From contig NC_010525.1 in NCBI RefSeq assembly GCF_000019805.1, positions 1,538,618-1,602,617 on the forward strand: a stretch of DNA of 64,000 nucleotides. Direction: 5' to 3'. Below, piece after piece: positions 9,571-11,717 of the stretch. The notes below the pieces were generated by a model that had not been told where the DNA came from, made no database searches, and worked only from the letters and a program-made list of their open reading frames with translations. The stretch comes from Pyrobaculum neutrophilum V24Sta (lineage in GTDB: Archaea; Thermoproteota; Thermoprotei; Thermoproteales; Thermoproteaceae). How positions within the stretch are numbered: the first letter of the stretch is position 1; every line of letters starts with the position of its first letter. The translations under genes were made by a program, and so were the position numbers.

Positions 9571-9659
9571 GGGCGCAGACGTGGAGACCGTATAAATACG
9601 TTACAGGCCGCGGGGGCCCTCTTAAAGCAAAATATAAAAACAGCACCGATGTAGTCGGC

Positions 9660-9872
9660 ATGATTATACACACGTCTCAGATACACCTGATCGAGGACGT
9701 GGAGACGTTGCTGGAGAAGTACAAGGTGAAGCCCGTGGCGGTGAAGGGCTCCCGGGTTAACTTCTACTGGCCGCCTCAGCCCACGGGTGTGCCCATAAAC
9801 CTCCTTAGATATTTCCCCCCGGATATGTACGTGGTATTCAGGGGGAAAAACACGCTGATAGTGGTGCCATGA
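9660..9872 (+). CDS. Small protein, unknown (first of four coupled ORFs)
   Basis: A 70-residue protein that begins IIHTSQIHLIEDVETLLEKY and ends in a beta-rich hydrophobic stretch (YVVFRGKNTLIVVP). No known domain is recognised. TATA box AATATAAAAAC at ~9630-9640, with an AAAGCAA-type BRE before it, lies ~25 bp from the ATG, so it starts a leaderless transcript. The stop overlaps the next start as ATGA. Confidence 0.65.
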   Translation: MIIHTSQIHLIEDVETLLEKYKVKPVAVKGSRVNFYWPPQPTGVPINLLRYFPPDMYVVFRGKNTLIVVP

Positions 9873-10006
9873 GGGGCATCCAGAAGAGGAGGGTGGCAGA
9901 CCTGCAGATAGAGCCCAGGATAAAGGAGGTGCTGATGAAGATCCTCGGCCCAGAGGAGGAGGTGTATGTGGAAACGTCGGGGGGGCGCATTAGGATAATC
10001 ATATGA
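9869..10006 (+). CDS. Very small protein, 45 aa (second of four coupled ORFs)
   Basis: A 45-codon frame too short for standard ORF cutoffs. It begins MRGIQKRRVADLQIEPRIK and ends GGRIRIII. It is basic at the N-terminus and ends in a beta-like strand. Both ends overlap their neighbours by exactly four bases (ATGA at 9869-9872 and again at 10003-10006), which is strong evidence that it is translated. The function is unknown; it resembles no family I know. Confidence 0.62.
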   Translation: MRGIQKRRVADLQIEPRIKEVLMKILGPEEEVYVETSGGRIRIII

Positions 10007-10428
10007 TAGTCGTGAGGTCGAACCACGTGGAGAAGCTGATGTGGCAGCTGAGGAGCCTGATCCCCCAGATGGAGTCTACCCCCATACTGCTGGCCCGGCG
10101 GCAGGTGGGGAACTACGTGGTTGGCCTAGGCACCCTGGGCTACCTATACGCAGCCCTCTCCTCCGTGCTAGAGACGCTGGTGGAGGCCGAGAAGATGGCG
10201 GATGACCTAAAGCTCCGGGACTACACGCTGGTGGTGGGGCCCGAGGAGAGCTATATCACCCAGGCGCAGCTGCCGGAGGTCATACCGCCTCTGCCGCAGC
10301 CAAGAGACATACCGCCGTTGCCCAAGGAGGAGGCTGAGCTAAACAGCTTCGGCTGCCCCAGCCAGACGGCCGGCATGGTCAAGTTCTGCGTAGACAACGT
10401 GGAAATAGCCTACTACCTGTCGCGATGA
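10003..10428 (+). CDS. Hypothetical protein, 141 aa (third of four coupled ORFs)
   Basis: An alpha-rich N-terminal half (VEKLMWQLRSLIPQMES and LETLVEAEKMADDLK) is followed by a Pro-rich linker (LPEVIPPLPQPRDIPPLP, ~88-105) and a short C-terminal segment with two cysteines (FGCPSQ and KFCVDN). No known domain is recognised. It is coupled by ATGA overlaps to the 45-aa gene before and the 109-aa gene after it, so its product probably works with theirs. Confidence 0.62.
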   Translation: MIVVRSNHVEKLMWQLRSLIPQMESTPILLARRQVGNYVVGLGTLGYLYAALSSVLETLVEAEKMADDLKLRDYTLVVGPEESYITQAQLPEVIPPLPQPRDIPPLPKEEAELNSFGCPSQTAGMVKFCVDNVEIAYYLSR

Positions 10429-10754
10429 TACTGGTAACCCTGTCGGAGCTTGAGGCGCTGCTGACCTCGCTGAGGGACTACGCCGAGAAGTACCGCACAA
10501 ACAGGCTTACGCTGGAGGCAGTGGAGGAGAGGTGGCTCAAGTTCCAGGAGCTCGCCTTCGCCTTCGGCATAGAGCTGAAGCCCGCCGAGGGTGTCGAGTT
10601 CTACGCCGGCGGCCCCCTGCCCGACAACGCAGACCTCATCAGAAGGCTCGACAGGATGATCTCCATTGTAAAAAAGATGAAGGAGGTATATGGAGATGTA
10701 AAAGTGATGGTCGATCTAGATCTAGTGATAAAAAGGACCATTATAAAAATTTAA
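10425..10754 (+). CDS. Hypothetical protein, 109 aa (fourth of four coupled ORFs)
   Basis: Mostly helical and charged, with heptad-like leucines in residues 5-45 (LSELEALLTSLRDYAEKY) and again near 80-95 (RRLDRMISIVKKMKEVYG), so a coiled-coil contact is plausible. The last codons run into the AT-rich promoter of the CBS gene. No known family is recognised. It is the last member of the coupled quartet. Confidence 0.62.
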   Translation: MILVTLSELEALLTSLRDYAEKYRTNRLTLEAVEERWLKFQELAFAFGIELKPAEGVEFYAGGPLPDNADLIRRLDRMISIVKKMKEVYGDVKVMVDLDLVIKRTIIKI

Positions 10755-10776: not shown

Positions 10777-11196
10777 ATGCCTTTGATAAAAAGACGGGAG
10801 CTACCGCTGAGGGTTTCAGACATAATGGTGAAAAACGTCGTAACTGCGAAGGAAAACGAGAGGGTGAGGGAGGTGGCCATCAGGATGTACGAAAACAAGG
10901 TGGGGAGCGTGGTCGTGGTAGACGACGAGGGAAGGCCCGTGGGGATAGTCACGGAGAGAGATCTGGTGTACGTTGTCGCAAGAGCTCTCGCCCCCGACAC
11001 GCCCGTCTGGATGGTGATGACCGAGGACCCGGTCGTCATAAACGAAAACGCGCTGGTGACCGAGGCCATGGAGAAGATGCGCCAGCTAGACATCAGACAC
11101 CTCCCCGTCGTGGACTCGGCGGGTAAGCTAGTGGGCATGGTGTCCTTTAGAGACATAGTGGACTTCATGGCGGTTTTGATGTCGCTCACCAAGTGA
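10777..11196 (+). CDS. Two-CBS-domain protein
   Basis: A 139-residue protein consisting essentially of a CBS pair (Bateman module): CBS1 ~13-65 (VSDIMVKNVVTA ... GIVTERDLV) and CBS2 ~78-135 (MTEDPVVINENA ... GMVSFRDIVDF). Such stand-alone modules bind adenine nucleotides or SAM and regulate partners. TATA element TTTAAATA at ~10750-10757 is 23-27 bp upstream of the ATG, so it has its own promoter inside the end of the quartet. It overlaps the DUF309 gene by GTGA. Confidence 0.85.
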   Translation: MPLIKRRELPLRVSDIMVKNVVTAKENERVREVAIRMYENKVGSVVVVDDEGRPVGIVTERDLVYVVARALAPDTPVWMVMTEDPVVINENALVTEAMEKMRQLDIRHLPVVDSAGKLVGMVSFRDIVDFMAVLMSLTK

Positions 11197-11717
11197 GGGT
11201 CCTAATAATCGCGGAAAACCCAGGTTTTACCCCAAGCCAGAGGCGCCACCTCATACGCCGCCTTAGGGAAAGGCTTAGGGTGATCACCGTCCGCATCGCC
11301 ACTAGACACGTCGAGATAGACGTGGACGCGGAGGACCCCCCGGCGGCGGCCGCATACGTGGAGCAAGCCGTGGGGAGGGTGCTGGAGGTGGCCGCGCCGG
11401 AGGAGGGAGGCGGCTTCATTAGGTACGTAGAGCTCTTCAACAGGGAGCGGTTCTGGGAGGCGCATGGGGCTTTGGAGAGGATCTGGATGGAGACCAGAGA
11501 CGAGGCGGTGCGGGGGCTGATACTGCTGGCGGCGGCCTTCGTAAAACTCCAGGAGGGGCTCCCGGAAAGGTTCGAGCACATGCTGAGGGAGGCTCTGGGG
11601 TTGCTCAGAGACGTATCGTGTATAAAGGCGGAGGAGATCAAGGCCAAGGCGGAGAAGGCGCTCATGGACAAAACGCCGTTTAAGATAGAGTGTTCAACAC
11701 CCTCTCCGCCAGCTTAG
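11193..11717 (+). CDS. DUF309 domain protein
   Basis: A 174-residue protein. The C-terminal half has the DUF309 signature (ELFNRERFWEAHGALERIW ~85-103, then GLILLAAAFVKLQEG ~112-126), a helical domain whose function is not established. The N-terminal ~75 residues form a separate, unrecognised alpha/beta region. It starts at a GTG overlapping the CBS gene. Its 3' end overlaps the convergent sir2 gene by 38 nt. Confidence 0.75.
   Translation: MRVLIIAENPGFTPSQRRHLIRRLRERLRVITVRIATRHVEIDVDAEDPPAAAAYVEQAVGRVLEVAAPEEGGGFIRYVELFNRERFWEAHGALERIWMETRDEAVRGLILLAAAFVKLQEGLPERFEHMLREALGLLRDVSCIKAEEIKAKAEKALMDKTPFKIECSTPSPPA

Follow-up and report, generated by a model that had tools for sequence, protein, structure and literature searches.

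The window analyzed here, 64,000 nucleotides in length, forms part of the 1.77-Mb single-contig genome of Pyrobaculum neutrophilum V24Sta. At 1,548 kb of that genome lie four small genes, designated A through D and together ABCD, which are read from one strand behind a TATA-like box and are followed by two genes of recognizable family. The features of the locus are listed below in coordinates of the window.

9630..9639, + strand: TATA-like box AAATATAAAA, centered ~26 nt upstream of the start of gene A
9660..9872, + strand: gene A, 70 amino acids, basic (pI 9.45), without transmembrane segment and with no assigned family
9869..9872, + strand: A/B overlap of 4 nt (ATGA), kept at 4 nt in 17/17 readable genomes
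9869..10006, + strand: gene B, 45 amino acids, basic (pI 9.5), defined by its open reading frame, relatives, and an AF2 model
10003..10006, + strand: B/C overlap of 4 nt (ATGA), kept in nearly all relatives
10003..10428, + strand: gene C, 141 amino acids, acidic (pI 4.9), defined by its open reading frame, relatives, and a low-confidence model
10425..10428, + strand: C/D overlap of 4 nt (ATGA), 1 nt or 14 nt in some relatives; D unlinked in genome G033
10425..10754, + strand: gene D, 109 amino acids, defined by its open reading frame and relatives
10777..11196, + strand: flanking CBS-domain gene (Pfam CBS, E 1e-32), 22 nt after D
11193..11717, + strand: flanking DUF309 gene (Pfam DUF309), with a 4-nt overlap with the CBS gene

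This arrangement confirms the description given in an earlier, sequence-only reading of the window, namely four open reading frames of 70, 45, 141, and 109 codons with ATGA at all three joints. The same reading placed the genes behind a single TATA promoter, and the box at 9630-9639 agrees with that view. An AT-rich box ~26 nt before A recurs in nearly all relatives; its presence at a matching distance makes plausible a leaderless mRNA that would start at 9660. One conclusion of the earlier reading, that strict coupling of the frames implies fixed stoichiometry, does not follow. ATGA overlaps are common in the window, where they join 7 of the 42 same-strand neighbor pairs of long open reading frames, and the C/D joint loosens among relatives.

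All four proteins appear to be soluble; neither a signal peptide nor a membrane segment was seen in any of them. The character of A and B is basic, that of C and D acidic. Each protein ends in a short hydrophobic stretch of the β type (for example LIVVP, RIRIII, EIAYYL, and TIIKI), and these C-termini could contribute to a shared sheet.

Comparison of genomes revealed that the cluster extends well beyond a single strain. A, B, and C occur in this order in all 19 Thermoproteaceae genomes searched, which represent three genera, and D is the next gene in every one of them except G033, in which A-B-C and D are found on different contigs. C was detected in 19 of 398 Thermoproteota genomes, all of them Thermoproteaceae, and in none of the 379 others. 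D is likewise present in 19/19 Thermoproteaceae genomes and gave two further weak matches outside the family, in G008 (E 2e-4) and G054 (E 5e-3), that look like chance. The former is a longer, unrelated protein containing helical stretches, the latter falls within a 439-codon frame, and neither genome yielded a match to C. Synteny across the Thermoproteales, which the earlier reading had proposed as a check, holds in part: the block is conserved in the Thermoproteaceae, but the order is too wide a frame for it.

The junctions between the genes vary unequally. The A/B overlap is constant. The B/C overlap measures 4 nt except in one genome, which has a 2-nt gap, and in G033, which has a gap of ~2 nt. 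The C/D overlap is 4 nt in Pyrobaculum-type genomes and in two of the Thermoproteus type; four genomes have 1 nt at this joint, and the third genus has 14 nt. Apart from the split cluster of G033, the only exceptions to conservation are frame breaks in two draft genomes, which affect A and B in G036 and A in G037. One of these breaks falls at a long run of C, which makes draft error likelier than decay. Apart from these exceptions, ABCD withstands both conditions that the earlier reading had named as refuting, restriction to one strain and broken frames in relatives.

Two lines of evidence, position-specific changes and the comparison of dN with dS, indicate that A, B, C, and D all evolve under purifying selection. 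Per site, third codon positions change well over twice as fast as first and second positions, including in the 45-codon gene B, and dN lies far below dS wherever dS is computable. B was found in 19/19 genomes and keeps its bounds even in relatives as distant as ~40% identity. This conservation, together with purifying selection, establishes B as a gene.

Despite their conservation, A-D yielded nothing above threshold in Pfam, NCBIfam, PHROGs, or PADLOC. Searches of PDB chains with sequence profiles returned no match for A and C and only chance-level matches for B and D; the solved Thermoproteales proteins ThermoDBP and crenactin/arcadins gave no profile match to A-D in this search. The earlier statement that none of the proteins resembles a family known to that reader thus stands for all of these collections. 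AF2 models were generated for B and C, each from two sequences (that of the window and that of L002). The model of B shows a strand-helix-strand-strand arrangement (pLDDT 88.6). C comprises an α/β N-terminal part, a proline-rich linker, and a C-terminal hairpin that contains an invariant pair of cysteines (C118 and C129); its model is poor (pLDDT 56), and a fold search with this poor model found no match. D is probably mostly helical with a β-type C-terminus, as judged from its sequence.

Several relationships were considered for these proteins and rejected. The order of structural elements in C and the literature on type IV pili (T4P) had raised the idea of a roadblock/LC7 domain (PF03259); hhalign assigned it a probability of 0.5%, which is below the best column shuffles. 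The similar N-termini of A, C, and D (MI..S...) raised the possibility of a common origin, and hhalign found nothing; in the pairs compared, the four families proved unrelated to one another. An origin in mobile elements was sought for C in IMG/VR and phage records and for D in IMG/VR and plasmid records, in each case without a match.

The first indication of function came from genomic position. ABCD, or in G033 its A-B-C part, lies within or beside a cluster of ATPase, TadC, and pilin genes in 3 of the 19 genomes (G043, G044, and G033), which belong to two lineages. In the third genus, g3, a single strand of G043 (L039/L144) encodes a pilin, a second pilin-like protein, a TadC-like protein, an ATPase, and a 168-aa membrane protein. 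A-B-C-D starts on the same strand 47 nt after the gene for this membrane protein, and beyond it, in convergent orientation on the opposite strand, lies a gene for a large protein anchored in the membrane by its C-terminus. G044 agrees with this arrangement as far as its contigs reach. The second lineage is represented by G033, which belongs to Pyrobaculum, as the window does, but is divergent. On its contig (L143), genes for a pilin and a large protein precede C-B-A, which is read from the opposite strand; the genes w124, TadC, ATPase, and a 170-aa membrane protein run divergently from A, with ~50 nt in between. In the other 16 genomes, ABCD lies away from pilus genes and the pilus parts are scattered.

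Because gene order differs between g3 and G033, the two clusters do not represent one inherited string, and their different arrangements suggest two linkage events. Phylogenetic trees place G033 ambiguously, branching off either ahead of the Pyrobaculum group or inside it (support 74 and 69); this unsettled placement makes a single ancestral linkage followed by dispersal possible. Both histories point to a functional tie, two events more strongly than one.

The pilus system itself consists of recognizable parts. Its ATPase matches T2SSE (E 7e-26), and its closest solved relatives are GspE, FlaI, and CpaF. The cognate ATPase occurs in the same 19 Thermoproteaceae genomes at 54-75% identity, split or partial in a few; it scores ~700 bits where intact, and the other families of the order have nothing closer than distant paralogues scoring 170 bits or less. 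The TadC-like protein is also found in 19/19 Thermoproteaceae genomes. Its match to T2SSF is weak (E 0.011), and the name therefore rests in addition on context, length, and membrane-protein character. In the window genome, a TadC-ATPase-170-aa block is located at 17.8-21.5 kb, and a second pilus locus at ~93.9-98.4 kb encodes a roadblock protein, an XylR_N/V4R-like protein, a pilin, a second pilin-like protein, and a large anchored protein. Pilus genes thus occupy two distant loci in this genome, both far from ABCD, which renders the link invisible there.

Some features of the pilus genes merit separate description. The pilin locus of the window genome (L148, L182) opens with a true roadblock/LC7 gene followed by the XylR_N/V4R-like gene, and a roadblock/LC7 protein encoded beside a pilin raises the possibility of MglB-like control of an archaeal pilus. 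In G041 (C1:778263-779733, L138), the coding sequence of the ATPase is divided between two frames and contains an internal stop, which reflects a pseudogene, a sequencing error, or recoding; ABCD is intact in this genome. In G036 (L013; C12:28.6-30.9 kb), several stops interrupt the gene for the large pilus protein, and a search for a pilin gave none; the frames of ATPase, TadC, C, and D are intact in this genome, while those of A and B are shifted. The breaks in its pilus genes are either draft errors or decay of the pilus. In G038 (G038:C55:16183-23453), ~5 kb separate TadC from the C-terminal part of the ATPase, as if something had been inserted between or into them.

On balance, we lean toward a model in which ABCD encodes a cytoplasmic accessory complex that is specific to this lineage and belongs to one T4P system of the Thermoproteaceae. 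The proposed partner system comprises the FlaI/CpaF-type ATPase, the divergent TadC/FlaJ-like platform, the ~170-aa membrane protein, the PilA-family pilin, and the large C-terminally anchored protein. The tie between ABCD and this pilus rests on synteny and co-occurrence, the phyletic range of ABCD being that of the cognate ATPase/TadC pair (19/19 Thermoproteaceae genomes), and the mechanism that we infer would be as follows. A-D would be produced from one leaderless mRNA by coupled translation and would assemble into a small complex at the cytoplasmic side of the pilus base, outside the filament itself. There, the complex would dock on the ATPase or on TadC and modulate the ATPase-TadC motor through docking, on/off switching, or choice of substrate. 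Action at the cytoplasmic face of the base is suggested by the solubility of the four proteins and by the fact that none is a core T4P part: with no membrane segment and no family match, none of them is a pilin, ATPase, TadC, or prepilin peptidase. For the same reason, their role would be accessory at most. Archaea are not known to have a PilT-type retraction ATPase. ABCD might perhaps switch the single pilus ATPase between extension and retraction, with four families that are unrelated to known ones; we regard this bolder version as quite unlikely.

Certain observations weigh against the link to pili. A single arrangement in an ancestor, and not two events, may underlie the linkage in the two lineages. 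Co-occurrence throughout a family is weak evidence, because many genes share the pattern. In addition, no fold or motif ties A-D to pilus function in family scans of all four proteins or in fold searches with B and C. The most serious competitor is a housekeeping complex of the Thermoproteaceae that has nothing to do with pili, such as an accessory complex of nucleic-acid or metabolic function, whose adjacency to pilus genes would be a coincidence or a single inherited accident. We consider it improbable but deserving of weight. The usual surroundings of the cluster favor this explanation: in 16 of the 19 genomes, ABCD adjoins non-pilus genes, namely a nucleotidyltransferase gene together with DUF309 or CBS genes, and the neighborhood of nucleotidyltransferase, GltX, and Sir2 is well conserved in two genera. 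The presence of ABCD in every genome of the family would also fit an essential role. On the other hand, a random block would come to rest within a few kb of the loci of this pilus system in only ~1% of relocations, by a rough estimate from genome size, and ABCD is found there in two different arrangements. The match between its phyletic range and that of the cognate ATPase and TadC likewise speaks against a housekeeping role.

Two of these neighbors require comment. The CBS gene follows ABCD in 9 of the 10 other genomes of the genus Pyrobaculum, G033 being the one from which it is absent, and it was not found beside ABCD in Thermoproteus-type genomes or in the third genus. It is probably co-transcribed with ABCD in Pyrobaculum-type genomes. 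The DUF309 gene adjoins ABCD in two genera only; in Pyrobaculum-type genomes it comes after the CBS gene, with which it shares 4 nt, and in Thermoproteus-type genomes it follows D. Neither gene is part of the ABCD module.

If ABCD does serve the pilus, the nearest alternative to modulation of the motor is a role in which A-D act primarily as chaperones or targeting factors for secreted parts of the pilus, either the prepilin or the large anchored protein. The linked loci lend themselves to this interpretation: A-B-C of G033 is wedged between the gene for the large anchored protein and the TadC/ATPase operon, and ABCD of g3 lies between the membrane-protein gene and the large-protein gene. However, distance to either partner does not separate a chaperone from a motor regulator, and A-D exhibit no known chaperone fold or similarity. 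This role seems to us clearly unlikely.

Less probable still is a regulatory function, in which B (AbrB/MazE-like) and A (HicA-like or nucleic-acid binding) would control pilus or neighbor genes or would constitute a domesticated toxin-antitoxin pair. B resembles the swapped hairpin of AbrB/MazE in length, order of elements, and profile. Over 38 columns, its profile aligns weakly (p ~1e-4) with the AbrB/MazE domains (PF04014) encoded in the same genomes, and none of 400 column shuffles was as good. No direct family match accompanies this likeness, since hmmscan found no match to the MazE family in 16 members of B, and a fold search with the confident model of B gave no AbrB fold among the PDB matches listed. 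A is basic like B, and its only Pfam matches are below threshold: HicA (PF07927) at E 0.02 and, in one relative, LSM at E 0.015. The HicA match is confined to residues 12-46, scores 15.4 bits against a cut-off of 27, and occurs in just 2 of 15 members of A. The toxin-antitoxin variant is further disfavored in that ABCD neither hops nor varies in presence, and no phage copies of C or plasmid copies of D were found. A transcriptional role for B, and with it A, is nonetheless possible. Finally, the notion that the small frames, above all B with its mere 45 codons, are open by chance has a negligible probability and is refuted by the retained bounds of B and the purifying selection on it.

The accessory complex that we favor can be compared with known systems. 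The T4P systems of the Thermoproteales are diverse and fall into clades 4B, 4D, 4E, and 4G according to the main text of a census built from gene neighborhoods, which also offers a precedent in the small, uncharacterized cytoplasmic proteins that it links to some archaeal T4P loci (Makarova et al. 2016, PMC4858521). The system described here resembles the Thermoproteales pili presented in that text in its FlaI/VirB11-type ATPase, divergent TadC, PilA-family pilin, and large C-terminally anchored protein. In contrast to the loci treated there, ABCD lies far from pilus loci in cultured Pyrobaculum and Thermoproteus genomes, so that the census probably did not link it to pili. Its main text describes no block of four genes at a site remote from the pilus loci. 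The pilin encoded at the pilus locus of the window genome is a homologue (E 1.7e-19) of the protein of the solved P. arsenaticum T4P filament (6W8U, PMC7347861). That structure comprises the filament only, with the base and cytoplasmic parts outside it, and a filamentous virus of Pyrobaculum was found to use this type of pilus as its receptor (PMC7347861).

Archaella and pilus systems possess cytoplasmic accessories, among them ArlC/D/E, ArlH-KaiC, and roadblock/LC7 proteins (arCOG02603), that are small soluble partners of an ATPase-platform pair, as we propose for A-D. A-D show no profile similarity to roadblock domains, and the searches of Pfam and of PDB sequences brought up no match to ArlCDE or KaiC. 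The sequence-only reading had nominated ABCD as an undescribed system. What survives of this proposal is that four unnamed families are maintained as a unit; instead of a system of its own, ABCD most plausibly represents a previously undescribed accessory module that belongs to a machine of known kind, the archaeal T4P.

The analysis provides four orphan families, which are universal in a family of hyperthermophiles, with their first testable functional link. If the link is correct, a whole cytoplasmic module would be added to a type of pilus whose filament has been solved. Pilus parts are scattered in the Thermoproteaceae, and censuses of gene neighborhoods in cultured genomes would therefore miss them. 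The proposed module bears on how archaeal pili may be regulated or retracted without a PilT ATPase.
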